A stretch of 64,000 nt of DNA, from contig NC_133232.1 of assembly GCF_040436345.1 (NCBI RefSeq), positions 33,617,315-33,681,314 on the forward strand, given 5' to 3'. Shown here one piece after another: positions 1 through 64,000 of the stretch. The position numbers were made by a program, and so were the translations under genes. The stretch is from Pagrus major (taxonomy: Eukaryota; Chordata; Actinopteri; Spariformes; Sparidae). Each line of letters begins with the position of its first letter. The first letter of the stretch is position 1. The notes under the pieces were generated by a model. The model was not told where the DNA came from and did not search any database. It saw nothing but the letters and a program-made list of their open reading frames with translations.

Positions 1-1439
1 TAATCTGACCATTTTGAGAACAACTGAAGAAGACGAGGGAATGTATCACTGTGCAGTCATTTACTGGACTAAGAGTTTTTGGAGTGGAACCTATTTGTCA
101 TTAAAAGGTAATTATGTGATTTATTTTTTGCAATGTTTTGGAGTCACTTTAACCACTTTCAGCTTCATTGTGTTAATGTTCTTTAACTTAACTGACTTAC
201 TGTCACTAAATGTGTTAAGCTCTGATTAATTTGAACTTTAAACATGCATTTAACACAGTTTTGCATCACACAGGAAACACTCAGAGGACATCGACCTACG
301 CTGTTGTTCAGCGGCCGACAGCCTCTGATCCAGTCTGTCCAGGAGACTCGAAGACTCTCCAGTGTGCAGTCCTCTCTGACTCTGAGACTAAAACATGTCC
401 AGGGGATCACAGTGTGTTCTGGTTCAGAGTCGGATCAGATAAATCTCATGCAAACATCCTCTACGCTGATGGAAACAGACGTGATGAATGTGAAGACAGA
501 TCTGACACTCAGAAAAGCTGCGTTTATCACTTCTCTAAGAACGTCAGCTCCTCTGATGCTGGAACTTACTACTGTGCTGTGGCCACATGTGGAGAGATCC
601 TGTTTGGAAATGGATCTAAAGTGGAAACCGGTATGATTCTGTATTTAATACTGGTATTCATAACATTTTAATAACATCATGACTGGTAAGTTTTTCTCTT
701 TGTTGTCTAGAGCGAAGAATGAGTCCTGAATGTATTGCTCTGGTGATAGCAATAATCTGCTTGGTCATTTCTCTGATTGGAAATATTGTTTTCATCTGTC
801 GCCGAACTTCAGGATCAATATGTGAACAAGTTAAAGGTAAGTGTTGTTGACTGAACCTACAATTTTAATACTCCAATTGTATGACTTCAAAAGTTCTTAT
901 AATGTAGAAAGATTACCATCACACAAACATTTCAGTAAATATCTGTCATTTTTCACATTATTAATTAATGTATCATCGAACATGCAGCACAATTTAATTC
1001 ACCAAATTTCATTTTCTTCCTTGTACATTACACAATCTCAGTAATGAATGATTTCCAACTGTATTCACTTTTAATTTTGATTGAAATGTGTTGAATCAGT
1101 GGAGGATCCTTATGGAAAAATCAGATTTTGCACAAAATGCTCTTGTTTTTATTGAATGTCAGGAATAGAAGGCATACCTTCACAAGCAAGAAATGACAAC
1201 TCCAGCCAACCAGTACGTGATATTGTAAGTACTGCTATTTTATAAACATATTTCCCAGCAGCTCTGCATAAAAACATAACTATACTGTCTAAAAGAGCCT
1301 TTTATCTGCTGCACAGATGGAAGGTGGAGATGATCTGAACTATGCTGCGTTGCATTTAACTGGACGGAAAGCTACAAGAGGACGTATGAAGAAAGAGTTG
1401 AAGACTGAAGAAAGTGTGTATTCTCAAGTTAGATGCTGA
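1..1439 (+). CDS. nitr: NITR-1: NITR gene with ITIM tail, 5' end cut by window edge
   Basis: Partial novel immune-type receptor. Visible exons: end of V (1-107), I (274-630), transmembrane (711-836), cytoplasmic (1163-1224), terminal (1317-1439), all with GT-AG borders and continuous phase. The V remnant keeps DEGMYHC and the J-like FWSGTYLSL. The I exon has the six NITR cysteines, TYYC and FGNGSKVE; one extra Cys stands where its relatives have Arg (PVCPGD). The transmembrane exon encodes about 23 hydrophobic residues with no charge. The last exon carries a canonical ITIM, LNYAAL, and a second, SVYSQV, so inhibitory SHP-phosphatase signalling is likely by analogy with the family. AATAAA lies at 1506-1511. 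Everything from the I exon onward is almost identical to NITR-2, its tandem neighbour. The leader and most of the V exon lie outside the window, so completeness cannot be judged. Confidence 0.88.
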
Positions 1440-3453
1440 ATGTGAAAGTGTGTCCATGAAATCGTGTGAATCGTTGGTTTACAGTACTGGCTGACTGACA
1501 GTGTAAATAAATAACGTGGCTTCCCTTCAAACTATAATGAGAATGAGGTGTTTCATGATAAACCATCCTGCAGCACATGCTCTTTATATTTCATGTTTGT
1601 ATATTGATCATTGCATTATATTATGTGTTTGCATTTACTTTCCCTGGCTGACTTAAGTCAAGAAATAATACACACAAACTTTAACAGAGCTATTAAAGTC
1701 TATAACTTTTTCATTACATATCTTTCAAACAATTTGATTTCTGCTTTTATTGTATTAGTTGAAAGAATTGATTCTGTATTTGAGATCTGAGGATTAAAAC
1801 AATTTGATCAAAAGCTGTGTGAGTGTTAAATGTTGATGTTTAGTTAAAGCCCTATGAAAATTCAACTTTGTGTTACTATTTCTCCAATGTGGCTCAGCAA
1901 GACAACACAGTGCATGAAAACATAAAGAGGGAATATAAATACATAATATTATACATTATACATAATATATATAATACCACACAACCAAAACAAACGTGAA
2001 GTAGCAACATAGAGGAACTTTCAGTTTTAACTTGTCTGTGGTTTTGCAAAAACATACTTAGCTCACAATTATTATGTGCTTCATTATCGAATCCATTCCA
2101 CTTTCTTTTTGGGAAAATTCCCAAATCAATGAAACTCCATACCACGTTCTAACTGCTACCTCGCACCCAGGTAGATTGACACATAGGACACACACATACA
2201 CACACACACTTACACACACACTTACACACACTCACACACACACACACATGTTCTTGCAAGACCTGCCCTACTCTGCCTCTGATTGGTTGGCATTGTTGGT
2301 TACGGTCTCTGTGCTCAACTTAAACTGTTAGCTCACACAGTAGCTCTGGTGATGTCTGCTTTTGGTGGTTTATAAGCTGTAGTTTTACGGTAAACACACC
2401 GACCTCTTCAGCTTCTCTCTCTGTCTTCTGCTGCTCCTGTCTGGATTATTCACCCTCTGGAGCTGCTCTTCAGAGGGTCTCTGAGCTTGTTAGGTAGAGT
2501 GGACAGGTGGGCTGCCCTGCCGCTGCTCCGCTACCCGGCCTGTCTGCTCTACCTAACGAGCCCAGAGACACTGCAGCTGTGAAAGCCAGTCGTTGTGGTG
2601 TGTTTACCAGGGCAACTCAACTCACACTCTGCCGATCCACTGTTGTATGTTTGTTTTACAAACTGCCCAGAAGGGAGAAAGATTTTCGTGAATCTTGTAG
2701 TTTACTGGACAAAAGGGACGGAGACCAAGTTGAGAGACCTGGTAGTCCAATGTGCAACCAGAGAGAGGGAGGGAGCTCAGTGGGCCACGATAAATTTACT
2801 GATAAATCTCTTTTGTCACCAGCCACCATTCCCCTTCCTCCCCACCCCTTCCTATAAAACTAACGTCTCCCGACTCGGCAGACTGTGAGACAAGAGTATC
2901 AGTGAAGAAGTGATTGAGTAGTCAGATAAACTGCCTTTGGTAACAGCCCAGTCACCAGGACAAAATGTTGACGGTTAATGTTTCTGCTAACACTGACACA
3001 TTCACACCATACTGACATTTCTAAAAACATGTCACACCACGTTTAAATTACAATTTTATAACTTGACTTTCATATGAAGAGGTGGAAGTGAAGAAAGCTA
3101 CCAAGGCAGCGACCACAGTCTGTAACTGCGTTTCAACATTTGTGAGTATGAAACCAGTGACCACGGGACGTTTTCAGGCCTGTTTGTAGCAAGTGGGTTT
3201 TGTAGCGATAAACTCTTGCTAATATGTTCACTCAGAGTATGTTGGTGTGCATGTGTGTGTGTATTATGTGTTTATGTGAGTGTGGTGGTGGTGAGGGGAC
3301 AACTGCAGCTGCAGGAGGCAGCATGATGCAGTGGAAAAACCTTTATTAACATCAAATAGTGAGTGCGTGAGAAAGAGAGGTAACATGCTCCACACAGAGC
3401 AGGACAACACCCATGTGGCAGGAAATGCACTTTGAATGTATATTCTGTGATAA
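1440..3453. repeat. Intergenic flank copy 1 (tandem with 5257-7313)
   Basis: Gene-free stretch between NITR-1 and NITR-2, almost identical to 5257-7313. It holds the 3' UTR of NITR-1, a (CA)n run at 2187-2249, a promoter-like module (inverted CCAAT near 2280, TTTATAAG near 2369), a long hairpin (2477-2569), and about 1 kb of NITR upstream sequence (2590-3549) that recurs at 10645-11641. Short open frames in it have no domain and are explained by the duplication. Confidence 0.8.
2477..2569 (+). other. Long imperfect hairpin, copy 1
   Basis: The arms 2477-2507 and 2539-2569 (31 nt each) are reverse complements except at four positions. Three of these become G-U wobbles in a plus-strand RNA and one is an A-C mismatch. 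The loop is 31 nt and GC-rich. The core of the left arm is GTTAGGTAGAG. The same structure is present at 6303-6395. Function unknown. Confidence 0.7.
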
Positions 3454-3549: not shown

Positions 3550-5256
3550 ATGATCGTGTTCTGCGTTACACTGCTTCTCCTTCATCAAGGATGTAAGTGC
3601 TGTCGAATCATGACCATTATATTTTCTCATTTAAGTATCTGTATGTAAACTAGATGTAGAGTATGGTGGTTAGTGTGATTATCTTTTATCTTATTTATGT
3701 TTTTACATTATACTCTAATTGTCATTTACTGATTCATCCATTGTACGTTTTAATTTCATTTAGATGCACTGGTTCCAGTGACCACAGTTCAACTTGGTGA
3801 AGCTGTGACCTTCACATGTCTTCTGCCTTTTGATGAGTTGGGCAGTGAACCTCTTTACTGGTACAAGCAGAGTGTCGGAGTTAATCTAAAATTAATTGTA
3901 ACACTTATGAAACATACGGACCCTGCGTACGGACCAGATTTTTCTGCCTCTAGATTGGATCTGAAAGTTGAGAAGAATATTAGTAATCTGACCATTTTGA
4001 GAACAACTGAAGAAGACGAGGGAATGTATCACTGTGCAGTCAATTTCTGGAATAAGAGTTTTTGGAGTGGAACCTATTTGTCATTAAAAGGTAATTATGT
4101 GATCTATTTTTCTTTTGCAATGTTTTGGAGTCACTTTAACCACTTTCAGCTTCATTGTGTAAATGGTCTTTAACTTAACTGACTTACTGTCACTAAATGT
4201 GTTAAGCTCTGATTAATTTGAACTTTAAACATGCATTTAACACAGTTTTGCATCACACAGGAAACACTCAGAGGACATCCACCTACGCTGTTGTTCAGCG
4301 GCCGACAGCCTCTGATCCAGTCCGTCCAGGAGACTTGAAGACTCTCCAGTGTTCAGTCCTCTCTGACTCTGAGACTAAAACTTGTCCAGGGGATCACAGT
4401 GTGTTCTGGTTCAGAGTCGGATCAGATAAATCTCATCCAAACATTCTCTACACTGATGGAAACAGACGTGATGAATGTGAAGACAGATCTGACACTCAGA
4501 AAAGTTGCGTTTATCACTTCTCTAAGAATGTCAGCTCCTCTGATGCTGGAACTTACTACTGTGCTGTGGCCACATGTGGAGAGATCCTGTTTGGAAATGG
4601 AGCTAAAGTGGAAACTGGTATGATTCTGTATTTAATACTGGTATTCATAACATTTTAATAACATCATGACTGGTAAGTTTTTCTCTTTGTTGTCTAGAGC
4701 GAAGAATGAGTCCTGAATGTATTGCTCTGGTGATAGCAATAATCTGCTTGGTCATTTCTCTGATTGGAAATATTGTTTTCATCTGTTGCCGAACTTCAGG
4801 ATCAATATGTGAACAAGTTAAAGGTAAGTGTTGTTGACTGAACCTACAATTTTAGTACTACAATTGTATGACTTCAAAAGTTCTTATAATGTAGATGATT
4901 GAAATGTGTTGAATCAGTGGAGGATCCTTATGGAAAAATCTGATTTTGCACAAAATGCTCTTGTTTTTATTGAATGTCAGGAATAGAAGGCATACCTTCA
5001 CAACCAAGAAATGACAACTCCAGCCAACCAGTACGTGATATTGTAAGTACTGCTATTTTACAAACATAATTACCAGCAGCTCTGCATAAAAACATAACTA
5101 TACTGTCTAAAGAGCCTTTTATCTGTTGCACAGATGGAAGGTGGAGATGATCTGAACTATGCTGCGTTGCATTTAACTGGACGGAAAGCTACAAGAGGAC
5201 GTATGAAGAAAGAGTTGAAGACTGAAGAAAGTGTGTATTCTCAAGTTAGATGCTGA
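3550..5256 (+). CDS. nitr: NITR-2: intact two-domain NITR with two ITIMs
   Basis: Complete inhibitory-type NITR of 345 residues. Exons: leader 3550-3592, V 3764-4090, I 4261-4617, transmembrane 4698-4823, cytoplasmic 4981-5042, terminal 5134-5256. All borders are GT-AG; the Ig exons are phase 1, as expected for this superfamily. The leader starts MIVFCVTLLLLH. V (about 15-123) has Cys in TFTC, core Trp in WYKQS, DEGMYHC and J-like FWSGTYLSL. I (about 124-242) has six cysteines, VFWFR, TYYC and FGNGAKVE. The transmembrane segment is about 250-272. ITIM LNYAAL is centred on Tyr314 and SVYSQV on Tyr340. AATAAA is at 5323-5328. The start is fixed by the signal peptide and the leader splice. The ligand is unknown. 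Near-identical neighbours make transcript assignment difficult. Confidence 0.92.
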
Positions 5257-6004: not shown

Positions 6005-6078
<74 letters not shown>

Positions 6079-7409: not shown

Positions 7410-9141
7410 ATGATCGTGTTCTGCGTTACACTGCTTCTCCTTCATCAAGGATGTAAGTGCTGTCGAATCATGACCATTATATTTTCTCATTTAAGTATCT
7501 GTATGTAAACTAGATGTAGAGTGTGGTGGTTAGTGTGATTATCTTTTATCTTATTTATGTTTTTACATTATACTCTAATTGTCATTTACTGATTCATCTA
7601 TTGTACGTTTTAATTTCATTTAGATGCACAGGTTCCAGTGACCACAGTTCAGCTTGGTGAACCTGTGACCTTCACATGTCTTCTGCCGTCTGAAGAGTTT
7701 ATCAGTCAACGTCTTTACTGGTACAAGCAGAGTGTCGGAGATAATCTGAGATTAATTGCAACACTTATGAAAGATACGGACCCTGTGTACGGACCAGAGT
7801 TTAATGCCTCTAGATTGGATCTGAAATTTGAGAAGAATATTAGTAATCTGACCATTTTGAGAACAACTGAAGAAGACGAGGGAATGTATCACTGTGCAGT
7901 CATTTACTGGAATAAGATTTTTTGGAGTGGAACGTATTTGTCATTAAAAGGTAATTATGTGATCTGTGTTTTGCAATGTTTTGGAGTCACTTTAACCACT
8001 TTCAGCTTCTTTGTGTAACTGTTCTTTAACTTAACTGACTTACTGTCACTAAATGTGTTAAGCTCTGATGAATTTGAACTTTAAACATGCATTTAACACA
8101 GTTTTGCATCACACAGGAAACACTCAGAGGACATCGACCTACGCTGTTGTTCATCGGCCGACAGCCTCTGATCCAGTCCGTCCAGGAGACTTGAAGACTC
8201 TCCAGTGTTCAGTCCTCTCTGACTCTGAGACTAAAACATGTCCAGGAGATCACAGTGTGTTCTGGTTCAGAGTCGGATCAGATGAATCTCATCCAAACAT
8301 CCTCTACACTGATGGAAACAGACGTGATGAATGTGAAGACAGATCTGACACTCAGAAAAGCTGCGTTTATCACTTCTCTAAGACCGTCAACTCCTCTGAT
8401 GCTGGAACTTACTACTGTGCTGTGGCCACATGTGGAGAGATCCTGTTTGGAAATGCAGCTAAAGTGGAAATCGGTATGATTCTGTATTTAAAATTCTACA
8501 ATAAGTCAAATAAAATCTATGAAAATCAACTATTGAGTGTCTTATTTTGTATTTTAAATAATTATTGGTAACAAGGAGGTAACATGATCAAATTTTAACC
8601 ATTTGTAATTTTCTATGTTTTTTCCTTTTGATAATGTTTCAGGATCCAGGATGTGGTCACCGACAGCTGATGCGCTAACTTATCTGCTGTGTGCTGCCTT
8701 GGCTATAAGTCTGGTTGTTATAGCCTTCCTCATTTGCGCCATGAAGAAACAAGAGTCTGGTTGTTACAACGGTAATAGAAGTTACTCATAGTTCTCTATA
8801 CAATGCTATAACATTAAAGCTACTCCTTCCTTATTTATTGTTAAATATATACTTTCTGTTTCTAAATCCAGCTGCTGTTGCCGGGCAGAAAATCCGTGGT
8901 GGTCAAAAAAGTCAACAGGTGAGGAATTTAAATGATGGATTAACCTTATTGAAACAGTTGAGGTTGTTTGTGTTTTTTAACGTTGTCTTCTGGTGTATTT
9001 TCACAGAGAGATGTGGACATGAGGCTTTATTCTGCGGTTGTTTTCACCATGATGAAAACTGACAGAGGTGCGATGAAGCATGCAGGAGCAGCAGAGAGAG
9101 AGAGGATCTACACTGCTGTCAAGGCTTTTGGGTTGGATTAG
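7410..9141 (+). CDS. nitr: NITR-3: NITR with exchanged transmembrane and tail
   Basis: Intact 345-residue NITR. Exons: leader 7410-7452, V 7624-7950, I 8117-8473, transmembrane 8643-8771, cytoplasmic 8872-8918, terminal 9007-9141. Leader, V and I closely match NITR-2, but the transmembrane segment (ALTYLLCAALAISLVVIAF), juxtamembrane KKQESGCY and tail are unrelated to NITR-2 and match NITR-8 and NITR-11. The tail has YSAV (Tyr309) and YTAV (Tyr336), both with Arg at -2, so they are ITIM-like rather than canonical. The J-like motif is FGNAAKVE, with Ala replacing the second Gly. Two overlapping AATAAA signals lie at 9491-9500. V shows WYKQS and DEGMYHC; I has all six cysteines. Signalling may still be inhibitory but is less certain than for the ITIM type. 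Confidence 0.9.
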
Positions 9142-11641: not shown

Positions 11642-13041
11642 ATGATCGTGTTCTGCGTTACACTGCTTCTCCTTCATCAAGGATGTAAGTGCTGTCGAAT
11701 CATGACCATTATATTTTCTCATTTAAGTATCTGTATGTAAACTAGATGTAGAGTATGGTGGTTAGTGTGATTATCTTTCATCTTATTTATGTTTTTACAT
11801 TATACTCTAATTGTCATTTACTGATTCATCTATTGTACGTTTTAATTTCATTTAGATGCACTGGTTCCAGTAACCACAGTTCAACTTGGTGAACCTGTGA
11901 CCTTCACATGTGTTCTGCCTTTTGAAGAGTTGGACCGTGAACCTCTTTTCTGGTACAAGCAGAGTGTCGGAGATGATCTGAAATTAATTGTAACACTTAT
12001 GAAACATTCAAACCCTGTGTACGGACCAGAGTTTTCTGCCTCTAGATTGGATCTGAAAGTTGAGAAGAATATTAGTAATCTGACCATTTTGAGAACAACT
12101 GAAGAAGACGAGGGAATGTATCACTGTGCAGTCATTTACTGGAAAAAGATTTTTTGGAGTGGAACCTATTTGTCATTAAAAGGTAATTATGTGATCTGTT
12201 TTTTGCAATGTTTTGGAGTCACTTTAACCACTTTCAGCTTCATTGTGTAAATGTTCTTTAACTTAACTGACTTACTGACGTGAAATGTGTTAAGCTCTGA
12301 TTAATTTGAACTTTAAACATGCATTTAACACAGTTTTGCATCACACAGGAAACACTCAGAGGACATCGAACTGCACTGTTGTTCAGCAGCCGACAGCCTC
12401 TGGTATGATTCTGTATTTAATACTGGTATTCATAACATTTTAATAACATCATGACTGGTAAGTTTTTCTCTTTGTTGTCTAGAGCGAAGAATGAGTCCTG
12501 AATGTATTGCTCTGGTGATAGCAATAATCTGCTTGGTCATTTCTCTGATTGGAAATATTGTTTTCATCTGTCGCCGAACTTCAAGATCAATATGTGAACA
12601 AGTTAAAGGTAAGTGTTGTTGACTGAACCTACAATTTTAGTACTGCAATTGTATGACTTCAAAAGTTCTTATAATGTAGATGATTGAAATGTGTTGAATC
12701 AGTGGAGGATTCTTATGGAAAAATCTGATTTTGCACAAAATGCTCTTGTTTTTATTGAATGGCAGGAATAGAAGGCATACCTTCACAAGCAAGAAATGAC
12801 AACTCGAGCCAACCAGTACGTGATATTGTAAGTACTGCTATTTTATAAACACAATTCCCAGCAGCTCTGCATAAAAACATAACTATACTATCTAAAGAGC
12901 CTTTTATGTGCTGCACAGATGGAAGGTGGAGATGATCTGAACTATGCTGCGTTGCGTTTAACTGGACGGAAAGCTACAAGAGGACGTATGAAGAAAGAGT
13001 TAAAGACTGAAGAAAGTGTGTATTCTCAAGTTAGATGCTGA
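11642..13041 (+). CDS. nitr: NITR-4: V-only NITR with two ITIMs
   Basis: Intact reading frame of 244 residues lacking the I domain. Exons: leader 11642-11684, V 11856-12182, short stalk 12349-12402, transmembrane 12483-12608, cytoplasmic 12766-12827, terminal 12919-13041. The stalk exon is the I exon reduced from 357 to 54 bp: 303 bp (101 codons) are gone, with frame and splice donor kept. Three bases (CTG) are shared at the break, which suggests a microhomology deletion. The 18-residue stalk carries Asn-Cys-Thr, giving an N-glycosylation sequon and an unpaired Cys that could form a dimer. ITIMs LNYAAL (Tyr213) and SVYSQV (Tyr239) are kept. Single-V NITRs are known in other teleosts, so this layout can be functional, but here it arises from a recent two-domain gene. 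A possible AATAAA is at 13347-13352. Confidence 0.88.

Positions 13042-14212: not shown

Positions 14213-14288
<76 letters not shown>

Positions 14289-38222: not shown

Positions 38223-38226
<4 letters not shown>

Positions 38227-38261
<35 letters not shown>
38227..38261. repeat. (CT)n microsatellite
   Basis: Pure CT run upstream of NITR-9; the matching run at 46023-46084 is nearly twice as long. Confidence 0.9.
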
Positions 38262-38262
<1 letters not shown>

Positions 38263-41017: not shown

Positions 41018-41031
41018 ATCGTAGATTTATG

Positions 41032-41870: not shown

Positions 41871-41879
41871 AGTGGTGAA

Positions 41880-42360
41880 ATGTCCTGGTTTTCATTGTTT
41901 TACATTGGGCCATTAAATTGACGCTGTATGTGACATAATCCCTGAGAAGCTGCTACATTTACACTCACAACGAGCAAGCAGACAGCCATAGCAGTCTTGC
42001 CTGCATCATTATGCCGAAGCGTAAATGCACATTTAACGATGAGCTACAAAAGAAATTCCCCACTTACCGTCCCGGTCGGGACAAGTGGGAGGCTTCGTGC
42101 ACCGTGTGCAAACCCGGTACATATGTTTCGGTGTCCAATGGGGGTGCCAGGGACCTCAAAGCCCACATGGACACCGAAAAACATAAAAAAAAGTGTGCAA
42201 GGTGAGTGTAGTAACTACACTCTTACATACATTCATACAACATACATTTAAAGTTTAAATGTATGTTAATTTTAAGGCATCTTTGAGTAAATTTTGAGTA
42301 TCATATCTCGTTGCTGGGCCGAGTGTCCTGGTTTTTGGTAATCAAAATATGGTCACCCTA
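41880..42360 (+). mobile_element. hAT-like DNA transposon fragment, copy 1
   Basis: 42011-42205 encodes MPKRKCTFNDELQKKFPTYR and onward, with a CTVC...AH...KH pattern like a BED-type zinc finger at the N terminus of hAT-family transposases; it ends at a GT splice donor (AAGGTGAGT). The right border reads, in reverse complement, TAGGGTGACCATATTTTGAT, a terminus typical of hAT-like elements. The catalytic body is absent and I see no matching left terminus. Family assignment is from recall. Confidence 0.5.
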
Positions 42361-45859: not shown

Positions 45860-46018
45860 CTTGACACTGACTTTATTAGGAAGCTTGTTTGTATTTCAGA
45901 GTGTTGATGTGGTGATGAGACGCTCAGACCATCTAATGCTTCTGATTGGTTATCACAGAATATAACATCAAAGTGCATTTCCTGCCACACGCATGTTGTC
46001 CGGATCTATTTGAAGCAT

Positions 46019-46022
<4 letters not shown>

Positions 46023-46084
<62 letters not shown>
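46023..46084. repeat. (CT)n microsatellite
   Basis: Pure CT run, the duplicate of 38227-38261. Confidence 0.9.
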
Positions 46085-46086
<2 letters not shown>

Positions 46087-46529
46087 GCACTCACTATTTT
46101 ATGTTTGACAGATTCTCATTAATTTGAATTTCAGGAATTGTGCAACATTTGTTCTCACCTTGGAATAGTTTTCATTTTTATCCATTTCTGCTAATACATC
46201 CCTCTCTCAGATACCAGATAGCACCTCTCACTTTGCTTCATAGTAAAACAGACAGTGAGCAGCCATGCAGATTGGCATTTCGCTCCAGTGCAACACTTCT
46301 CAAATTGGAGGCTGAAGATTGATCGACGTCAGCACAATTTAAATCCATCTATCGGTTGGGGAATATACTTTAGTGAATGGAGTAAGGCTGTGCAAGAATC
46401 AGACCTGGGGCTTCATTTGTAACCATTGTATAAAAACTAAAAAGGGACATAAAATGTACCTATGCCACTTTCTCAGCTTTAATTGGGATTTACAAAAAAA
46501 ACTTCACGAGGAAATATCGAAGATTTATG

Positions 46530-48888
46530 TTGATGAAGGTTCTCAGTCCTCCAGGTCATGGTAAATCTAGGTACTGTACCATAACTTTACAGGCACGTCA
46601 AAGCAACTCGCACAGAACAGAAGCTCTCGCCTGGAGAAATAAGGACAACAACAACACAGCACATCTGGACATACAAGAGTGGGTTAAAAACTTGTCCAAC
46701 AGAGAGCTCACCCAACCAGAGAAGGATGTCCTTGCCAAAGTGACTGATCTTTGCAGTAGCTCCAGAACAGATACTGGTAGTAGATCTCATCACAGCAACA
46801 GAGTCAGCCATCAGAAACAACAAGATGGCAGACACAGCGGCAGAACAGCTACGGTTGAAGGTATCAGCTGCTCTTGCTGATGCAAAAGCACCCCCCTCCA
46901 ACTTCACTACTGAGGAAAGGAAGGCCCTGGCATCACTCAAAAGAGACAGGAACATCACCATCTTGCTGGCAGACAAAGGGAGATGCACTGTGGTGCTAAA
47001 CACAGCAGACTACCACACCAAAGTCACTGATCTGCTCAGTGATACTAACACCTATGAGGCTCTGAGGCGAGATCCTCCCAGTAGCTACAAAAAGAAGGTT
47101 ACAGATCATCTGCAAAAACTGGAAAAGGACAAAGCCATTGACAGGCCATTATATTACAGACTGTAGCCCGGGGAAGCCATCCCATGTATCTATGGACTCC
47201 CCAAGATACACAAGGAAGGAGCACCACTCAGAGCCATCAGCAGCAGCATTAACTCAGTTACTTATAACATATCCAAGCACATAGCCAGCATCCAAGCTCC
47301 TTTGGTTGCTAACACTCAACACCACATCCAAAACTCACAGGACTTTGCCAACACAGTGAGAGAGATAACACTGGACTCAGACGAAACAATGGTTACTTAT
47401 GATGTCACATCACTATTTACATGCATTCCCACTCAAGATGTGGTTAAGATGGTGAAGATACGCCTGCAACAGTACAGCAGTCTGTCCAGCAGAACCAACT
47501 TCACCCCAGATCACATTTGTGCCTTACTTGACCTCTGTCTGACGACCACCTACTTCCAGTACAGTGAAGGCTTTTACAGACAGAAGCACGGCTGTGCCAT
47601 GTGCTCACCGGTGTCCCCAATAGCGGCCAACCTCTATATGGAGGAAGTTGAGAACAGAGTCTTGATCACATTCACAGGAACTGTTCCAAGCCACTGGCTC
47701 AGGTATGTGGACGACACCTGGGTCAAAATCAGAGCAAGGGAACTGGAAGCCTTCACAGAACATATAAATGCTGTGCACAATAACATCAAGTTCTCACAGG
47801 AAGATGTCAGAGGAGACAGTCTGCTCTTCTTGGACTGTGCAGTTCACACTGAAGAAGACAGAAGCCTCAACATTAAGGTGTACAGAAAACCTACACACAC
47901 ACATCAGTACTTGCTGTTCGACTCTCATCACCCACTGGAGCACAAGTTGGGGGTCATCAGAACCCTAAACCATTGGGCTGACACCGTGCCCACTAAGTCA
48001 GAGGGGAAGGAGAAGGAACAGAAGCACATCAGGGGAGCACTTAAAACCTGTGGCTACCCAAACTGGACCTTTGTCAAAACCTCTAAAAGATCCAGAGCAG
48101 ACAGAGAGGAGGAGACAAGAAAACATAACAACATCATCATTCCCTATGTCGCAGGAACATCTGAGAAACTCAGGAGGATCTTCAATAAACATCATATCCT
48201 GGTTCACTTTAAAACTACCAACACACTGAGGCAGAAACGGGTCCATCCTGAGGACAAAACACCCAGGTATAAACAGAGTAGTGTAGTTTATGCTGTTCAA
48301 TGCAGCCAGGACTGCACAGATCTGTACATTGGGGAGACAAAACAACCTCTCCATAAACGAATGGCACAACACAGGAGGGCCAACTCCTCAGGTCAAGACT
48401 CTGCTGTCCACTTACATCTGAAGGAGAAAAATCATTCCTTTGAGGACAACATTGTGAACATATTGGCCAGAGAAGACAGATGGTTTGAAAGAGGAGTAAA
48501 GAATCCATATATTTCAAACTGGAAAGACCGTCTTTGAACAGAGGAGGTGGCCAAAGACATTACTTATCACCCCACTTACAATGCAGTACTGAGCTCTCTC
48601 CCCAGACAGCTTAACAACCATTCGCACCTGGGCTCACCTAGCTCTAGCAACCCACATGAAGACCGGTTGGACCAACGACTTCAACCAACGACCCACAAGT
48701 GGCCCTAACGACTCTGACACTCAGAGTTCACACGTGTCCTTAACGACTCTGTAAGGACACTCCCACACAGAGTTTGTAAGCCTGCAACTCCCCTCAAGTT
48801 AGTTATAACTGAAGAAGCCTCTTGGATGAGAGGTGAAACGTCTTCAAGAAAATGAAACAAGTCTAGTTGCCTACGATACAGCACCTAG
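46530..48888 (+). mobile_element. Penelope-like element, copy 2 (broken, longest open stretch)
   Basis: Same insertion as 38706-41017, with flanking 14-bp repeats at 46516-46529 and 48889-48902 (one difference). This copy shows the RT catalytic motif in LRYVDDTWVKI and a continuous stretch of 411 codons (47302-48537) covering most of the RT palm, the linker and the GIY-YIG endonuclease (YAVQCSQDCTDLYIGETKQP). It still has at least one break, shared with copy 1, and is a fossil. It is in the opposite orientation to the NITR genes around it. Confidence 0.9.
48809..48842 (+). ncRNA. Hammerhead-ribozyme-like core in Penelope tail, copy 2
   Basis: CTGAAGA (the CUGANGA box), a five-base stem CCTCT/AGAGG with a TGGATG loop, then TGAAAC and GTC. 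Stem III would be the self-complementary ACGT, as in dimer-forming minimal hammerheads. Stem I is weak by eye. Penelope-like elements are known to carry hammerheads. Confidence 0.5.
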
Positions 48889-49739
48889 ATCGTAGATTTA
48901 TGAAAACGTTTACCCATGCTTACAAACATTTTGGAAACAGGGTAAATTGGTGACGGTAGAACTTGAGCGACCAGACTGCCATTCTAGCAAAATCAACATC
49001 CTTAGCATTGATAGCTATAACATGGATAATAGGAAGGACATCTGTCACTCAAACATGAGGCCTTCTTGTGTATTGAGGAGCTGCAGAGTTTATTTATGAG
49101 CAAACATACTGTACATTTACTGCCACCAGACGACCTCACCGCTGAACTTTCCCTTTGCTCCAATAGCCAACACCTGTCTCCCTCTCATTCAGCCACACAC
49201 ATGCCATGCACTGCCCCGTTCTGAAAGGAGCCATGCTACTCTTTAACTTCAGATACACTTGAGCCAATGTTTAAGTTCTCTGCGGTTTTCGTAGAAACGT
49301 ACTTGTATGTAGGAAATGTACCTCAGTTTAATTAGGGAGTGTTCACACGCAACATTTTATCCCCACTGACAACATATTGACTAGAGGTAGTTGTGTATCA
49401 GTCAGACTGTGTAAATATTGATCAGTGTTTTTGTGGGAGAGCTCCAGCTTTTCAGTTGTCTTGGTAATTAACAGCATTAACCGCCAGTGTTTCTGTAAGG
49501 GGACATGTTGTCAACATGTCTGTGGACATCTGATTTGTGTTTTCTTGGCATAAAATGGATGTTTATATTGTCTTCTATCAGGAAATAACTTCATCTGAAC
49601 TCACTACAAATACTACATGAAGTGCAAACACACTCTGCTGCGATATCCATGTGAAACTGTGAAGGTCAGGAACTTGATCACATAATAGTTTTTGTAAAAC
49701 TTAAATACTGGCTGGATTTCAGTGATTCTGTCAAGAGAT

Positions 49740-50225
49740 GTCAAGTGGTGAAATGTCCTGGTTTTCATTGTTTTACATTGGGCCATTAAATTGACGCTGT
49801 ATGTGACATAATCCCTGAGAAGCTGCTACATTTACACTCACAACAAGCAAGCAGACAGCCATAGCAGTCTTGCCTGCATCATTATGCCGAAGCGTAAATG
49901 CACATTTAACGATGAGCTACAAAAGAAATTCCCCACTTACCGTCCCGGTCGGGACAAGTGGGAGGCTTCGTGCACCGTGTGCAAACCCGGTACATATGTT
50001 TCGGTGTCCAATGGGGGTGCCAGGGACCTCAAAGCCCACATGGACAACGAAAAACATGTGTGCGAGGTGAGTGTAGTAACTACACTCATACATACATTCA
50101 TACAACATACATTTAAAGTTTAAATGTATGTTAATTTTAAGGCATCTTTGAGTAAATTTTGAGTATCATATCTCGTTGCTGGGCCAAGTGTCCTGGTTTT
50201 TGGTAATCAAAATATGGTCACCCTA
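49740..50225 (+). mobile_element. hAT-like DNA transposon fragment, copy 2
   Basis: Duplicate of 41880-42360 with the same N-terminal zinc-finger-like frame (49884 onward), changed near its splice donor (KHVCEVS in place of KHKKKCAR). Right border at 50225. Confidence 0.5.
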
Positions 50226-52658
50226 ACATACGTCATCATGTCATAGTGCGGTCGCAATGGAGAACAACACAGAGAACATGACTAACTTTACTGACTTTTT
50301 TGTGGCTTATTTTGTGTTGTTATATACGCATGATTATACTTCATGTCCACGTTGCGCACCCTCAACCATTAGACACGGTGATACACAAAGACCCAGGAGC
50401 CATTTTAAAAAAATTCAGATGCTTTACATCATCAGTGATGACCCGCCCCTCTGCCTGTCACTCACATAAGCAGGAAGAGCACAGCGTCCATCCTCTACAC
50501 TCGCTTCACTTCTTGTCAGAGGGCTGGTGAAAGTCAGCAGCAGAGCGACACTCTCACAGTATCACACAAACACATTCACCTGAAGGCCACTGAGAGTTTC
50601 TGAACTATGTATTTTTATCTGAGGAGAAAGCCACAACATAACACAATCCAATACAACACCACACACTGACACACACAACCTATCTATCTATAGGGCCTGC
50701 AGTAAATCTGTTGGACCAGTGTGTTGTGGTCTGTGGTCTTCATCAGGGTCAGTACTGTCGACCTCATTGGTTTTTACAAGAAAAGCACCAACTGTAAAAT
50801 AGAGTTTCAAACAGGAGCTCTTCATGTTCTTCGTTTTCTGCTTCGTACTTTTGAAAACAGACGCACATGAACACACATTCACAGTCACCACTGAGAAACA
50901 AACGATGCATGGAAACTGAAGCGTTGTTGTGGTCGGGCTTCAAACTGAGGTGAGACTCTTCGACCTCTCTCACTTACTATTTCAGCCTCAGAAAGTGGCC
51001 TGTAACACTACAGTGCCTTCCTTTTATGGCTCGTGTTTAATATCACAACAACTTCAAAAGGGGCAGTTACAAGAAACAGGACGGTTGGAGACACACCTAC
51101 CCAGTCACGTTATGTCATGATCGCCTTCAGCTCAGTTTTCTGTGATTTGGTCCTTCTGATTGGTCGTTCATGTCAGAGGGGGGAGGTGCTGATCACTCAC
51201 TGGTCTCAACCCTGATCTGTTCGACAAGAGCATGAGTTCTTAAATGAAGGAGAACTTACATGAAGTCTGCCTGATTATCCACAAACAGGTTTCACATGTG
51301 TGCTGAAGTCTAAAGTGATGGACAGGAATCAATAAACTAATATAAGGATTGTATGTTTCAATATAACTGATCCGTACGGTTGTAGATCACTTTTGTTGTA
51401 TCTTTAAAAACCCAATTTACAATCAGTAGTTGTGCTCTGAATGACATTAACCAGAAAATAAAACCAAAACTTTGTCTTTTGTTCAACTAAAATTAGCCTT
51501 CTGAAACCTGTTTTAGCTCTTCCCTCGCTACGTATCCTGTTGAAGCCTGTAGTCAGGTCCTGTTCTGAGTAAACAGCCTTGATGGTCGGTCTGATGGCCC
51601 ACCGCAGCACGTAGCTGTCAGTGCAGCTTGTTGCATGTGGCTTTGCTCGTTGTCATGACAGACGTGCAGAAGAGCTTCACAAAGTGTTGCAGCAACAGAA
51701 CAAAGGAGGAGTTCATTAAGTTCAGTGGTTTTTCCCTCACGTTATTCATGCAATGTATTTTCTTATCAGTGCATTTCTCTGAAGAAAGATTAATTGTGAC
51801 TAAAACATCAAAGTTTCCATAAGTTTGTGTCTACAGTTGTGGTGAACAGACACACAGCAGTTCACTGTCAAAACCTCAAAATGTCTGTCTGCTAGTCGAG
51901 CCTCTAACTACTGATAACACGTCACTTATACACCAGTATTGGTAGAGAGAGTCGCCGCAAGAGTGTTTGTGGTGAGCTGCTCTAACAACAGAGGACAACC
52001 AGCAGCACCTTTCTCTACAGGCAGAGCAGCGCCTGTCAACTGCTCTGCAACTGTGACAACATATTGACTAGAGGTAGTTGTGTATCAGTCAGACTGTGTA
52101 AATATTGATCAGTGTTTTTTGCTTTTCAGTTGTCTTGGTAATTAACAGCATTAACCACCAGTGTTTCTGTAAGGGGACATGTTATCAACATGTCTGTGGA
52201 CATCTGATTTGTGTTTTGTTGGCATAAAATGGACGTTTAGGAAATCTGCCGAATAACCAAAAGTTGTTTGACACAATGACAGATGGAGTCAGTAGTTTAG
52301 CACTACGAAGCACAGTGTGTTTTATTTATTGAAACAGTTTGTTACATATTACAGTAGTACTGATCAGAAATCAGTGCTCTTCTCTAATTTCTGATCAGAT
52401 CTGTTCCTCTGATATCTGAGCCATCTAACATGTCGGTGCCTACACTGATACATTGGAGCCTCTGGAGACCCTGCACAGAAAAGAAAAGTTCAACCCCACA
52501 TTCAGTGTATTTCTATCTATTTCAATCTAACTTGTTTCTACAGTTATATGTGTATAATATGTATAAAAGCTTGACCTAATAGCCACTACTAGCTACTGTA
52601 CATAAACCCATTGAGCTCTAAATGGACTGACATCAACCAAACACATCATTTTAAGTCA
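50226..52658. repeat. Intergenic unit Y, copy 4
   Basis: Homologous to 28402-30899. A small local inversion is visible near 51965-52000, where a stretch present as TGTTGTTAGAGCAGCTCACC in other copies is reverse-complemented. AATAAA signals for NITR-11 lie on the minus strand at 52321-52330. Confidence 0.7.
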
Positions 52659-54489
52659 CTAATCCAACCCAAAAGCCTTGACAGCAGTGTAGATCCTCTC
52701 TCTCTCTGCTGCTCCTGCATGCTTCATCGCACCTCTGTCAGTTTTCATCATGGTGAAAACAACCACAGAATAAAGCCTCATGTCCACATCTCTCTGTGAA
52801 AATACACCAGAAGACAACGTTAAAAAACACAAACAACCTCAACTGTTTCAATGAGGTCAATCCATCATTTAAATTCCTCACCTGTTGACTTTTTTGACCA
52901 ACAATGATTTTCTGCCCGGCAACAGCAGCTGGATTTAGAAACGGAAAGTATATATTTAACAATAAATAAGGATGGAGTAGCTTTAATGTTATAGTGTTGT
53001 ATAGAGAACTATGAGTGACTTCTATTACCAATGTAACAACCAGACTCTTGTTTCTTCGTGGCGTAAATGAGGAAGGCTATAACAACCAGACTTATAGCCA
53101 AGGCCGCACACAGCAGATAAGTAAGTGCATCAGCTGTCGGTGACCACATCCTGGTTCCTGAAACATTATCAAAAGGAAAAAACAAAGAAAATTACAAATG
53201 GGTAAAAGTTGATCATGACTTATTGTATAATTTGAGATTTAAATGTTAGATAACATGATGAAGGTCTAAGTACCGAAACATTGTCAAGAAACTTAATCGC
53301 AAGTGAAGTGGGAAGTGTGCGGGAGTATTTTTCCTGATTTTGTCGGCCTTTGGTCTTCTCCTACGCACCTGTCGACCCTAAGGTGACTTAAATGGTCAAA
53401 TTTCCTAAATAACAGAACAATGTTACCTTCAATGTCAAGTTTTGTTCCATTTCCAAACAGGATCTCTCCACATGTGGCCACAGCACAGTAGTAAGTTTCA
53501 GCATCAGAGGAGCTGACGTTCTTAGAGAAGTGATAAACGCAGCTTTTCTGAGTGTCAGATCTGTCTTCACATTCATCACGTCTGTTTCCATCAGTGTAGA
53601 GGATGTTTGGATGAGATTCATCTGATCCGACTCTGAACCAGAACACACTGTGATCTCCTGGACATGTTTTAGTCTCAGAGTCAGAGAGGACTGAACACTG
53701 GAGAGTCTTCAAGTCTCCTGGACGGACTGGATCAGAGGCTGTCGGCCGCTGAACAACAGTGTAGGTCGATGTCCTCTGAGTGTTTCCTGCATGCAAAACT
53801 GTGTTAAATGCATATTTAAAGTTGAAATTAATCAGAGCTTAACACATTTAGTGACAGCAAGTCAGTTAAGTTAAAGAACATTAACACAGTGAAGCTGAAA
53901 GTGGTTAAAGTGACTCCAAAACATTTTAAAAACAGATCACATAATTACCTTTTAATGACAAATAGGTTCCACTCCAAAAATTCTCAGTCCAGAAAATGAC
54001 TACACAGTGATACATTCCCTCGTCTTCTTCAGTTGTTCTCAAAATGGTCAGTTTACTAATATTCTTCTCAACTTTCAGATCCAATCTAGAGGCAGAAAAC
54101 TCTGGTTTGAACACAGGGTCGGTGTGTTTCATAAATGTTACAATTAATCTCAGATCATCTCCGACACTCTGCTTGTACCAGTGAAGAGGTTTACTGCCCA
54201 ACTCTTGGAAAGGCAGAAGACATGTGAAGGTCACAGGTTCACCAAGCTGAACTGTGGTCACTGGAACCAGTGCATCTAAATGAAATTAAAACGTACAATA
54301 GATGAATCAGTAAATGACAATGAGAGTATAATCTAAAAACATAAATAAGATAAAAGATAATCACACTAACCACCATACTCTACATCTAGTTTACATACAG
54401 ATACTTAAATGAGAAAATATAATGGTCATGATTCGACAGCACTTACATCCTTGATGAAGGAGAAGCAGTGTAACGCAGAACACGATCAT
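52659..54489 (-). CDS. nitr: NITR-11: NITR with hybrid I exon
   Basis: Intact 346-residue NITR. Exons: leader 54489-54447, V 54275-53949, I 53786-53427, transmembrane 53157-53029, cytoplasmic 52928-52882, terminal 52793-52659. V is of the NITR-2 type (VTTVQLGEPVTFTC, LHWYKQS, DEGMYHC, FWSGTYLSL). The I exon begins like NITR-2 and NITR-5 (TSTYTVVQRPTASDPVRPGD) but ends like NITR-7 (FGNGTKLDIEG in place of FGNGAKVETG) and is 3 bp longer, so a conversion tract ends inside the exon. Transmembrane and tail match NITR-3 (Tyr in YSAV and YTAV, Arg at -2). The I-transmembrane intron holds a Penelope-type tail fragment at 53250-53390. Confidence 0.9.
53250..53390 (+). mobile_element. Penelope-type tail fragment with hammerhead-like core
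   Basis: Short insertion in the last Ig intron of NITR-11, absent from the matching introns of NITR-3 and NITR-8. It contains TGATGAAGGT, a loop, ACCGAAAC, ATT and GTC (53256-53285), the order of a minimal hammerhead core, although the C preceding TGATGA is A here. The remainder (GTGTGCGGGAG, TCTTCTCCTACGCACCT) resembles a common fish repeat tail. Family assignment is from recall. Confidence 0.45.
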
Positions 54490-55664: not shown

Positions 55665-57358
55665 CTAATTCAACCCAAAAACTTTGACAGCAGCGTAGAT
55701 CTTCTCTCTCTCTGCTGCTTTTACATCTCCCGTTCCACCACTGCCTTTTTTCATAACGGTGAAGACGGCAGCAGAATAAACCTGAGAAAATATATGGCAA
55801 ATTCTGTCAGATGATTATCCTGATGAATGCATTTAAAAAGAACAACAGTGCTAACTTTATTTTAGAAGGTTAAGCCTACCCTTAAATTGCTTAAATTCTG
55901 GTTTTGCTGCCCACCAGCGTTTTGCATGCCTGTTAATCAAAAATGAGAAATGTATTATAAAATGTACAGCAAATGAATACAGTAACAATAATACAACAAA
56001 TAAACAAACAAACAGATGAATGAATAAAAAGGATTGAGTGAATGTCACTAAATCAAAGAGTAACGGTTCTGTAGGTTGATTATATTTTATAGACTATTAA
56101 TGTGAATCCAGTGAAGTTCGCTTTTCCCAAATTGAACAATGTGTAAGTAATGTATCCTTACCTTTGCAAATGTCACAAGATTTTCTGGAATAAATGAGGA
56201 CAGCTATCACAATCAGACTTACAGCCAAGGCAGCACATAGCATGAACAAAATCGTATTGGCCCACATGTTGAGTGCTGAAAAATAAAAAAGGACGAATAA
56301 TAAAAATGTAAAAAAGTGTAACTAACTGTAACATCATCATAAAATGTAAGGACAATTATTTGTCAGAGTATATCTTAATGGACTTCCAAGTAAACATACA
56401 CTGATGCGGACTTCACCAGTATGTGAAAATGTTCTCCAGCTACCTTCAGTGTCGGGTTTTGATCTGTTGCCACAATCTATCTCCCCACATGTGGCCACAG
56501 CACAGTCACAAGTCGCTGCATCAGAGGAGCTGATGTTCCAGAAGAAGCCGTAGATACATTTCTTTGTGGAGAGTCCTTCTGGGTTTTCTTGAATGTAATT
56601 AAAACTTGGATCAAAATCTGATCCGGCTCTGAAACAGCACACACTGTGTCCTCCTGGACATGTTTCTTCATCAGAGCCAGAGAGGACTGAACACTGCAGA
56701 GTCACTGAGTCTCCTGGACGGACTGGGTCAGAAGGAGGGACTGCGGTGGTATCAGGTTCTGATCCTGAGGAATTGCAAAAAGATTAAAAAAAACAAAAAA
56801 CGTGCAAAACAAAAGTAAAAGCTGTTAGTTTTTAGTTGTTTTTTCTTTACTCTCTAACCTTTTCTGTGATGTATTTACCTTGAACTCTCAGGTCCACTCC
56901 ATTCAAAAATGTCAATGTCAATGTTTTGTCTATTTTTAAACAGTAGTAAACTCCAGTATCTCTCAGCTTTGCATTTGTGATGCGCAGGACAAAAGTTCCA
57001 GACTCTTCTGTGGATCTGATGTGAGGATCAACACTTGCAGAGCTAAATGTTTTATAGACTTCAGGAAGTTTTCCAGAAACAAGTCTGATCCAAAACAAGG
57101 TTTCTGACTGCTTGTGACGACATTTCAGAGCCACGTTAACTCCAACTGCAGCAGTCTGTGTCTCAAGGATCTGCTGAACTGTGCATCCTGAAAAGACATT
57201 ATTGTAAATCAACAAAAGATAAAGAATGATGTATGCCCTTTCCTAAATAAGTCTAAGAGGATATACAATACTTTAAATGCTTATCTGGAGTAAATCTGAT
57301 GCCTCTACTTGTACTCACCCACTCCGCTGAGCGTCAGCAGTAAATAAAATAGAATCAT
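55665..57358 (-). CDS. nitr: NITR-12: NITR with Cys-rich I domain
   Basis: Intact 316-residue NITR. Exons: leader 57358-57319, V 57187-56879, I 56764-56444, transmembrane 56275-56162, cytoplasmic 55929-55880, terminal 55781-55665. Leader, V and I are sister to NITR-6 but keep the V-I intron. I has the same unusual residues as NITR-6: VCCFRAGSD in place of VFWFR, TCDC in place of TYYC, and CGNRSK in place of FGNG. The transmembrane and tail exons are not those of NITR-6: LFMLCAALAVSLIVIAVLIY, then KSCDICKG, and a short tail with VYSAAV (Tyr280) and IYAAV (Tyr307, Lys at -2), which is nearer the NITR-3 tail type. The cytoplasmic exon border (AGG before GTAGGC) is the least certain of the splice calls. 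Confidence 0.85.
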
Positions 57359-61597: not shown

Positions 61598-63305
61598 TTA
61601 ATCTCTCACAAAAGTCCTGATGTCAGAGTAGGTCGTCTCTGCCTCTGATGTTTTTACCTTCAGTCTCTCTGCTTTGCGAGCTTTCTTCTTGGTGAAGGTC
61701 GGTGCAGAATAAATCAATGAGTCCTCATGTCTCTGAGCAAAGATATGGAAAAAATGTCATGAGAAGACAGATGTTAATATTTAGATGTTAATTTTTATAT
61801 ACAGTAATAACTTTCCCACTCATCTCTTTTCTTTGCATTGCTTACCTGCTGTCTTTGCTGACCACCACTGGCATTTGTTTCCAGGACAGCATCTGTATTA
61901 AAATAAGAAATAATAAAAACATATATTAGATAAAAAGATGCTGTCTGTTAATTTAGATTTATTTATGGATATATCAATGTAAATCCTGTGACGTTAGCTT
62001 TTTGCAAAATGCTGTTTGATGGATTGAAGTATGAGAAACTTCTGTTACCTTTGCAACAACCACAAGATTTCTTCTTCATGGTGTAACTCAGGTAGGAAAT
62101 AACAATCAGACTCATCACCAGAGCAGCACAGAGCAGAAACACGACTGTATTGGCTGTCTGCAAATCCCACATGTTGACTGCTGAAACAATATGAAAAGGA
62201 GAAAATAATAAAAGTCAACAATTATTTTAATAAGACGTTAAAATACATTTGTGGTACAACTTAATAGATTTGATGAGATCAGAATGAATGATTATTATCG
62301 ATTTTTTGGAAATCTTTACCTTCAATGTCCACTTTTGTTCCATTTCCAAATAAAATCTCTCCACATGAGGCCACAGCGCAGTAATAAGTCCCAGCATCAG
62401 AGGAGCTGACGTTCTTAGAGAAGCTGTAGACACATTTCTGTGCAGAGTCAGACTCAGGACTCGTCTCACATTCATCACCGCTATTTCCATGAGCGTAAAT
62501 GAAACTGGGATTAGATTCTGATCCGGCTCTGAACCAGAACACATTGTGTCCTCCTGGACATGGTTTGTTCTCAGAGTCAGAGAGGACTGAACACTGCAGA
62601 GACACTGAGTCTCCTGGACGGACTGGATCAGATGGAGGGAGTTGAATGACGGTGGTGATATCAGGTTCTGCTCCTGCAAAATAAAACATTTTACTCTCTT
62701 TAATGAAAATAAAAGTATCTAAATATGTTCATTTCTAATTTAAGGAAACATGTGACATCTTTATATATAAATTAAAACATATAAATATGTAAAGTGCTGT
62801 TATAAATGATGTTTACCTTGAATTCTTAGAAATGTTCCTTCCACAAATGTCAAGTTAAGTTGTGTATGTTTTACACAGTAGTAAAGTCCAGTATCATTTA
62901 ACTGTGCTGCACTAATATGCAGAAGAAATGTTCCATCGCCTTGTTTTGCTGTAATGCGAGGAGTTTTGTTCACACCTTCATAATCAAAGCTATATGTTCC
63001 TCCCAACACTTCAGGCATGTTTCCAGAAACCAGCCTGATCCAAAACAATTGTGTTGAAAGCCAAGACTTCTGGCGGTCACAGGTCAGAGTCACATCATCT
63101 CCAACAGTCTTCACCTCAAAGTTCAGACCGTCTGTGCATCCTAAAGATAAAATTAAATAGAGCAGTGATTAACAACAGACAGAGTCAAATGTTCTCTGCT
63201 CTAAACTGATGCGTGAATATAACAAACCTAAACTATATATGGATAAAAGACTGACTACTTACGCCCGACTCTGAGCATCAGCAGTAAATAAAACACGATC
63301 AGCAT
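61598..63305 (-). CDS. nitr: NITR-13: two-domain NITR with ITSM-like tail
   Basis: Intact 343-residue NITR, sister of NITR-7. Exons: leader 63305-63263, V 63140-62817, I 62673-62320, transmembrane 62177-62049, cytoplasmic 61892-61846, terminal 61732-61598. V is one codon shorter than in NITR-7 and differs mostly in two places: around RQKSWLSTQLFWIR (the first binding loop) and CVKHTQLNLTF (the CDR3-like loop), where NITR-7 and NITR-8 read CVKVDKLNLTF. I has six cysteines and FGNGTKVDIE. The tail keeps LIYSAP and TTYSDI (TxYxxI, ITSM form). The transmembrane acceptor is a CAGCAG tandem that could add or drop one residue. Confidence 0.9.
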
Positions 63306-64000
63306 TTTCTTGTTGATTCACTCGAGACAGCAGTTAAATTAGATCGTATTAGAGGAAGATTCATCTTAATGTAGCGGCATCGAGTGGGAGGGAATCATTT
63401 CAGAGCAGTCTGATTGGCTCCTTGTTATGATGTAGTTTCAGTGAACCACCACAGTGGAAATAATATCGACCACTTTTCCAACCTGAACACATGAAACAAC
63501 ACTAACAGCAAGCTTCTGTTTAGAGTTTCATGTGGACACACCAGAGGATTTTATTGGACTTTGACTTTTAATCTGATACTGACTCAAATGATGAAAATGT
63601 TTAGAAAACACACACACATCACCCTAAATGACATGTAGTAAGATCATTTTCTGACCACAAGGAAGAACAATGCACAATACAGCACACTTTTGTGTTCAGG
63701 TAAGGTTGTACACGAAGGTCCACCCACACAGGTGTTTTCACACATGTTGTTTATAATTAGACCTTTGACAGAACTGTCAGAACCTGCATTTAGTTGACAT
63801 ATCACCTGCATTTACTTGACATATCACCTGCATTTAGTTGACATAATCTCACTCTTCCTTTGTTGGTATAAACCTTCATGATCCTCAACAGGACGTCAAG
63901 TTTAATGACATCAACGTGTCTTCACCCAACTCCCACCTGACAGGGTGAAAGATGTGTTGGAGGGCAGGACAGGGCCTTTAAAGAGGAGATAAAGGTTTGT
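63306..64000. repeat. Upstream region of NITR-13
   Basis: Homologous to 32548-33200 upstream of NITR-8, including the CCAATCAGA box on the minus strand at 63409-63417 (103 nt before the ATG). A short sequence near 63790-63845 (CATATCACCTGCATTTA) is locally triplicated. No gene seen. Confidence 0.7.

Follow-up and report, generated by a model that had tools for sequence, protein, structure and literature searches.

Hybrid NITR genes in a receptor cluster of the fish Pagrus major, with the I exon as a probable recombination hinge

The stretch of Pagrus major DNA treated here (assembly GCF_040436345.1, contig NC_133232.1, positions 33,617,315 to 33,681,314 of the forward strand; 64,000 nucleotides, which we call the window and in which all positions below are counted) is a cluster of fish novel immune-type receptor (NITR) genes. 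In this report, we find that genes of this cluster are mosaics: a head of one family (5' flank, leader, V exon and most of the I exon) is joined in an open reading frame to a tail (the transmembrane (TM) exon, the cytoplasmic exons C1 and C2, and the 3' flank) with other nearest relatives. We consider it probable that such hybrids were made by ectopic homologous recombination, with the I exon as the main hinge. A tblastn search with peptides from the window itself as queries recovered the 13 NITR V loci that an initial annotation, made from the sequence alone, had counted; four lie on the + strand (g1 to g4) and nine on the - strand (g5 to g13). Splice-consistent models give an intact predicted coding sequence in 10 of the 13 (g2, g3, g4, g5, g6, g7, g8, g11, g12 and g13). 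The hybrids g3, g8 and g11 are among these; in the models of the hybrids, splice sites and phases are correct and the frames stay open.

Mosaic structure of the genes

By their heads, the loci fall into classes A (g1 to g4 and g9 to g11), B (g7, g8 and g13) and C (g6 and g12), with g5 divergent. By their tails (TM, C1 and C2), they fall into classes P (g1, g2, g4 and g5), Q (g3, g8, g9, g10 and g11), R (g7 and g13), S (g6) and T (g12). Heads A, B and C are each found with two tail types; counting only such heads, at least three re-pairings are needed, plus a tract in g5 that is described below.

Gene g3 (7410..9141, + strand) is an A head fused to a Q tail that lacks a canonical immunoreceptor tyrosine-based inhibitory motif (ITIM); its exons lie at 7410-7452 (leader), 7624-7950 (V), 8117-8473 (I), 8643-8771 (TM), 8872-8918 (C1) and 9007-9141 (C2). 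Nearest relatives were mapped in bins of 100 bases, and bins that compared overlapping extracted regions (self DNA) were ignored. In this map, g3 is nearest to g1, g2, g4 and g11 through the I exon, and to g8 to g11 thereafter. Its A-headed relative g2 (3550..5256, + strand; exons in the same order 3550-3592, 3764-4090, 4261-4617, 4698-4823, 4981-5042 and 5134-5256) carries a P tail with two ITIMs. Gene g8 (30900..32547, - strand; 32505-32547, 32056-32382, 31559-31912, 31270-31359, 31123-31169 and 30900-31034) is a B head fused to a Q tail; it is nearest to g7 and g13 through the I exon, and to g3 and g9 to g11 thereafter. Its relative g7 (26290..27999, - strand; 27957-27999, 27508-27834, 27011-27364, 26741-26869, 26538-26584 and 26290-26424) joins the B head to an R tail. 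In the third case, g6 (20962..22374, - strand; C head, S tail) and g12 (55665..57358, - strand; C head, T tail, separate V and I exons; 57319-57358, 56879-57187, 56444-56764, 56162-56275, 55880-55929 and 55665-55781) match in 20 of 22 bins at 88-100% through the I exon, the remaining two bins standing at 84 and 75%. They show no mutual match after it, and beyond the I exon the map holds nothing in the window that is close to g6.

Synonymous divergence (dS) changes along the genes as well. It is 0.059 in V and 0.091 in I between g2 and g3, and saturated in TM and C2; between g7 and g8 it is 0.027 (V), 0.038 (I), 1.37 (TM) and 0.23 (C2). The comparison of the two hybrids g3 and g8 runs the other way, with 1.29 in V, 0.56 in I, 0.31 in TM and 0.036 in C2. 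For g6 and g12 the values are 0.106, 0.093, 0.88 and 0.96. The initial annotation had claimed different nearest relatives for exons of single genes in the pairs 2/3, 7/8 and 6/12, and here the maps, the codon divergence and the junction alignments agree.

Separate trees were compared for V (12 rows; g1, which is cut, excluded, and g9 and g10 partial), for I (10 rows; g4 excluded, and g9 and g10 without an I exon) and for TM plus tail (13 rows). Introns of different families could not be aligned with one another, and identity maps therefore took the place of intron trees. The Q class {3,8,9,10,11} has support of 100/99 in the TM-plus-tail tree. Its monophyly is rejected by V at a cost of 343 log-likelihood units (lnL; p of the approximately unbiased (AU) test 2e-51) and, for g3, g8 and g11, which alone of the class carry the exon, by I at a cost of 200 lnL (p-AU 1e-70). 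Conversely, the tail tree rejects head B {7,8,13} (cost 37 lnL, p-AU 1e-6) and head A {1,2,3,4,9,10,11} (cost 254 lnL, p-AU 5e-7). Holding A plus g5 together in the tail tree costs 7.3 lnL (p 0.04). Certain groupings are less sharply drawn: in the V tree, head B forms no resolved grouping but is not rejected (p 0.47), and there is little resolution within the A heads, except for {g9, g10, g11} at 97/97. In the I tree, head A without g5 is not rejected (p 0.08), A plus g5 stands at 100/100, and g1, g2 and g5 of tail class P are joined at 67/71, with no conflict with the tails. The comparison of trees that had been proposed as a check thus gives strongly conflicting topologies for the Q tails and for heads A and B, and a weak conflict for {6,12}, for which the identity bins carry the case. 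Taken with the maps and dS, the trees uphold the proposal that ectodomains have repeatedly been re-paired with different tails, beyond the duplication of whole genes in tandem.

In the maps, V and I mostly move together with the 5' flank. The 3' flank goes with the Q tails (5 of 5 loci) and with the tails of g1/g2 and g7/g13, but not with those of g4 or g5. Thus, the basic pattern is one of two halves with their hinge close to where the I exon ends, and it is not one of free cassette shuffling; of the exchangeable cassettes that had been envisaged, the mosaic of heads and tails stands and the independence of the single exons does not. There are three exceptions to the two-halves pattern. One is the g5 tract. 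Another is g4 (11642..13041, + strand; A head, P tail), whose similarity to g2 ends just past C2 (94-100% as far as about 13100, then 48-84% over eight bins). The third is a step at the TM exon inside the Q tails, which is weighed in the Discussion.

Junctions and the I exon

The 3' end of the I exon is the site of four of the five distinct head/tail junctions: those of g3, g8 and g6/g12 fall 0 to ~18 nt past it, and that of g11 in its last ~31 nt. At the g3 junction (8474..8500, + strand), the alignment shows ~18 bases of A/P-type intron followed by Q-type intron. Past the I exon, the likeness of g7 to g8 is lost within 4 bases and that of g6 to g12 within about 7. Gene g11 (52659..54489, - strand; 54447-54489, 53949-54275, 53427-53786, 53029-53157, 52882-52928 and 52659-52793) is an A head fused to a Q tail; at its junction (53427..53465, - strand), the I exon aligns as A-like up to the shared 12-mer TTTGGAAATGGA and as B/Q-like beyond. 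This 12-mer encodes the J-like FGNG, and the switch falls inside it.

No transposable element was seen at the junctions, although no repeat library was searched; the reverse-transcriptase copies of the window sit upstream of g9 and g10, not at junctions. We also observed that ~135 bases of the g11 intron between I and TM (53251-53385, - strand) have no sizeable match elsewhere in the window.

Exact matches between families reach 22-33 nt within the I exon, and none of the other compared segments has one longer than 14 nt. This holds for 6 of the 6 pairs tried, two of which involve g1 and were compared without its V side. Further, in each of the 8 pairs tried between head families, which are not independent of one another, I shows a smaller dS than V.

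Gene g5 (15504..17823, - strand; 17781-17823, 17309-17638, 16077-16433, 15871-15996, 15729-15784 and 15504-15626) combines a divergent V with a P tail. It holds a conversion-like tract of ~600 bp (15851..16452, - strand) that covers the I exon, the I-TM intron and the TM exon and is shared with the A family. Against g2 the tract is 94-100% identical per 50 bases, and the adjoining outer bins stand at 34% and 66%; the direction of transfer is not indicated. Between g5 and g2, dS is 0.76 in V, 0.09 in I, 0 in TM and 0.20 in C2.

Tails, ectodomains and altered architectures

Tyrosine motifs were called by the established definitions of the ITIM and of the immunoreceptor tyrosine-based switch motif (ITSM). 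Two canonical ITIMs are present in all four P-tail loci (g1, g2, g4 and g5) and none in the other nine; non-canonical tyrosine sites occur in 9 of the 13, and the R tails carry the ITSM-like TTYSDI. Given this distribution, re-pairing probably changes output: a swap from a P to a Q tail would remove ITIM signalling, and new output from re-paired heads is plausible. The most hydrophobic 19-residue TM window contains a charged residue in 0 of 13 loci, which rules out an activating tail that works through such a residue. The S tail of g6 has, at 20965-21096 (- strand), a YxN-type site, CIYTNV, that is absent from the other 12 tails; we take it to fit a Grb2-like consensus.

For V, the pooled pN/pS reaches 1.24 in A and 1.88 in B, and for I it is 0.62 and 0.36, respectively; we give these ratios as descriptive values. 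In pairwise comparison, dN does not exceed dS in V of the C pair (dS 0.106, dN 0.096) or of g7 and g8 (0.027 and 0.025). Among the A heads, 20 of 32 variable V residues lie in loop-like positions, which make up 30 of the 108 (Fisher p 5e-7), with loop limits that were drawn by eye on the alignment used for the test; the enrichment is not significant in B (10/20, p 0.06) or C (8/19, p 0.17).

Two loci depart from the common architecture. The I exon of g4 measures 54 nt (12349-12402) instead of 357, owing to an in-frame deletion of 303 nt that ends at the splice donor, and g4 is predicted to encode a V-only receptor. In g6, V and I occupy a single exon of 633 nt (21571-22203, - strand) with an open frame, the V-I intron having been lost relative to g12. 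The fused exon still contains the V donor sequence, so that splicing from it directly to the TM exon could give an in-frame V-only form as well. Judged by their sequences, both architectures look local and recent.

Identity and context of the cluster

The loci have the features of NITRs: a V-set ectodomain, a six-cysteine I domain, a J-like motif, and a tail with an ITIM or variant and no charged TM residue. All four V exons submitted (g3, g5, g6 and g7) pass the Pfam V-set cut-off. The A-type V matches the solved structures of NITR10 (2qhl, 3b5t) and NITR11 (2qte, 3bdb) with E from 1e-8 to 2e-6, although ten T-cell receptor delta chains outscore these slightly. Six cysteines were found in 7 of the 9 I exons counted, with seven in g1 and nine in g12 (g4, g6, g9 and g10 were outside the count). 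Eight of the same nine carry the J-like motif FG.[GA]..[LV], g12 being the one without it; a variant of the motif was seen by eye at the ends of the V exons. Of two I exons scanned with Pfam, g7 lies above the V-set cut-off and g3 below. None of the NITR synteny genes (map4k2l/men1, fgfrl1b) was recognised in the list of open reading frames (ORFs) of the window, in which no gene-by-gene search was made.

Four further loci complete the set. Gene g1 (1..1439, + strand; A head, P tail), known from tblastn and splice models, is truncated by the window edge, with the end of V at 1-109, I at 274-630, TM at 711-836, C1 at 1163-1224 and C2 at 1317-1439. Gene g13 (61598..63305, - strand; 63263-63305, 62817-63140, 62320-62673, 62049-62177, 61846-61892 and 61598-61732) has a B head and an R tail. 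The pseudogenes g9 (37054..38250, - strand), with a Q tail, and g10 (44859..46050, - strand) share their lesions: an altered leader start codon, loss of the 5' half of V, and loss of the I exon except its first ~12 bases. They lie in the two copies of an 8-kb tandem duplication (36274..52055; copies 36274-44188 and 44080-52055, 97.0% identical), each of which also carries one reverse-transcriptase element with a GIY-YIG-like end (38610-40666 and 46434-48537, + strand). We presume this element to be Penelope-like; RVT_1 and GIY-YIG scored just below the Pfam cut-offs in 46434-48537, the sole copy scanned. A short repeated ORF, MPKRKCTFNDELQKK..., at 41939-42205 and 49812-50123 (+ strand), presumably resembles a DNA-transposon fragment; one copy was scanned and gave no Pfam match above cut-off.

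Discussion

We propose that tandem and inverted copies recombine by unequal crossing-over and gene conversion and so give rise to the hybrids. An exchange begun in the I exon would join a head to another tail, and the I exon is favoured as the main hinge because the longest identical stretches between families lie there. Since the V, I and TM exons all have lengths divisible by three, and their phases match, the products would stay in frame. The surroundings of g8 are consistent with this mechanism. A spacer, F, lies between g8 and g7 (28402..30143), with further copies near 33879-35692, 42360-44073 and 50225-51941; the six pairwise divergences among the copies span 1.75-2.80%, and the non-coding divergence of the g7 and g8 heads is similar (10/666, or 1.5%). 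The order (A+Q) F (B+Q) F (B+R), together with these similar divergences, is the leftover that would be expected of one unequal crossover between a B+R and an A+Q gene.

Several observations weigh against so simple an account. When the Q loci are compared two by two, divergence over the TM exon and the final 80 bases of the I-TM intron is 5.4-26.8%, but from the TM-C1 intron to the 3' flank only 1.2-2.9%, and this contrast is seen in all 10 pairs (p from 4e-3 to 1e-31). The I-TM intron is in part poorly alignable, yet a difference of 6-20% remains in the TM exon by itself. A single crossover in the I exon therefore does not explain g8 or the A+Q genes, which call for a second exchange point at the TM exon or for a donor that was not seen. 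The junction shared by g9 and g10, the fifth, comes ~12 bases after the start of the I exon, and the rest of the exon is deleted up to the Q intron; this may be a later deletion. For the tails of g6 and g12, the window contains nothing closely related, and thus no donor is shown for them. The tail tree rejects {6,12} only at p 0.04 (cost 7.3 lnL), and a grouping by tail class P (g2, g4 and g5) is compatible with V (p 0.19). The cytoplasmic exons of R and Q also have fairly low dS (C2 0.23 for g7-g8 and 0.29 for g11-g13), so the I exon is not the sole young stretch. Finally, the apparent hinge could partly reflect that junctions are alignable only there.

The step in the Q tails points to a second boundary, of exchange or of homogenisation, at the TM exon. 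A clean single crossover for g8 is ruled out by the divergence of the TM segments among the Q loci. A single A+Q fusion followed by duplication only is likewise ruled out, as the divergence between g3/g11 and g9/g10 is far greater in the TM segment than elsewhere. Q-type TM segments may have become joined to A heads on more than one occasion, or one of these segments may have been replaced.

Segmental duplications that end inside genes could also yield hybrids, each arising once by non-homologous joining, with neither a hinge nor recurrent exchange. Indeed, the similarity of g6 and g12 is the tip of a block of ~7 kb (21.56-28.40 k against 56.44-63.71 k), and the deletions in g4 and in g9/g10 have little homology at their ends. 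Such an origin is nonetheless unlikely in view of the gathering of four of the five junctions at the I exon 3' end and of the g5 tract, which is bounded on both sides. We find it quite improbable that the pattern is an artefact of assembly, in which alleles of a highly variable cluster were placed in tandem and mis-joined. Identities of about 92-98% over kilobases are possible for alleles of such loci, and an excerpt of PMC11088111 places a herring NITR cluster in a high-diversity region, of a kind that differs in copy number; however, splice sites, phases and frames are correct in the hybrids, and one head with different tails stays mosaic even if the copies are alleles. Plain tandem duplication with divergence, in which unequal conservation of exons creates the mosaic look, agrees with the large tandem and inverted blocks and with the stronger conservation of I than of V, but it is very improbable, because the same jumps occur at synonymous sites and in introns as at coding sites, which refutes exon conservation alone, and because the AU tests and dS contrasts refute it for heads A and B, if more weakly for 6/12.

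For recombination between heads and tails, the KIR fusion genes of primates are the direct precedent. As excerpted, PMC7516082 describes KIR clusters in which recombination forms fusion genes that shuffle head- and tail-encoding exons, including a rhesus KIR3DL20 that swapped its cytoplasmic tail with KIR2DL04 and KIR1D. The few human KIR fusions that it reports as fully sequenced have breakpoints in intragenic transposable elements. Like the KIRs, the genes of the window are clustered natural killer receptors of immunoglobulin type with head-tail recombination, and as in a KIR-like fusion, head and tail have different nearest relatives and the frame is kept. Unlike them, they belong to another receptor family, and four of their five junctions lie at the 3' end of the conserved I exon (within the limits of a comparison made with no repeat library).

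The NITRs of medaka and zebrafish, so far as the excerpted text of PMC2442602 goes, share with the window V and I domains, a six-cysteine I, a J-like motif, ITIM or itim tails, expansions, V and I exons that are fused or separate, and members without I. A supplementary legend of that paper flags NITR families that include inhibitory as well as activating members, so the pairing of a single V family with two tail types was already on record. The paper explains the family by birth and death; shuffling, recombination, conversion and crossing do not appear in its main text. Its authors suggest that most fused NITRs, and likewise most I-less ones, go back to a common ancestor; g6 and g4 in the window, by contrast, seem to have recent local origins. 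In the sections seen of PMC12447643 and PMC2110893, gene conversion keeps alike the ectodomains of CD300A and CD300C and of canine CEACAM1 and CEACAM28, respectively. Those pairs resemble the window in combining shared ectodomains, different signalling tails and local recombination; they differ in being inhibitory and activating pairs, for the charged TM core that marks activating NITRs is found in 0 of 13 loci here. Given these systems and the dual forms of medaka NITRs, we class the process as one of a known kind. Searches of open-access literature listed no title or abstract opening that describes shuffling or conversion of NITRs, and we do not claim that it is unpublished.

We raise as a tentative and rather doubtful extension that the I exon, including its J-like FGNG codons, is a standing germline recombination hinge of NITR clusters, one that rewires a fast-evolving V to tails with or without ITIMs; V-only forms such as g4 and single-exon V-I forms such as g6 would then arise afresh, as recurrent and not ancestral states. 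If ectopic recombination hinged at the I exon is indeed at work, one fish locus would display several steps in the origin of paired receptors, namely change in the V loops, a near-constant I and repeated change of tail. The role of the I exon as a recombination hinge would become testable, as would the idea that heads keep their ligand while output changes. V-based NITR family names, moreover, would not predict signalling.

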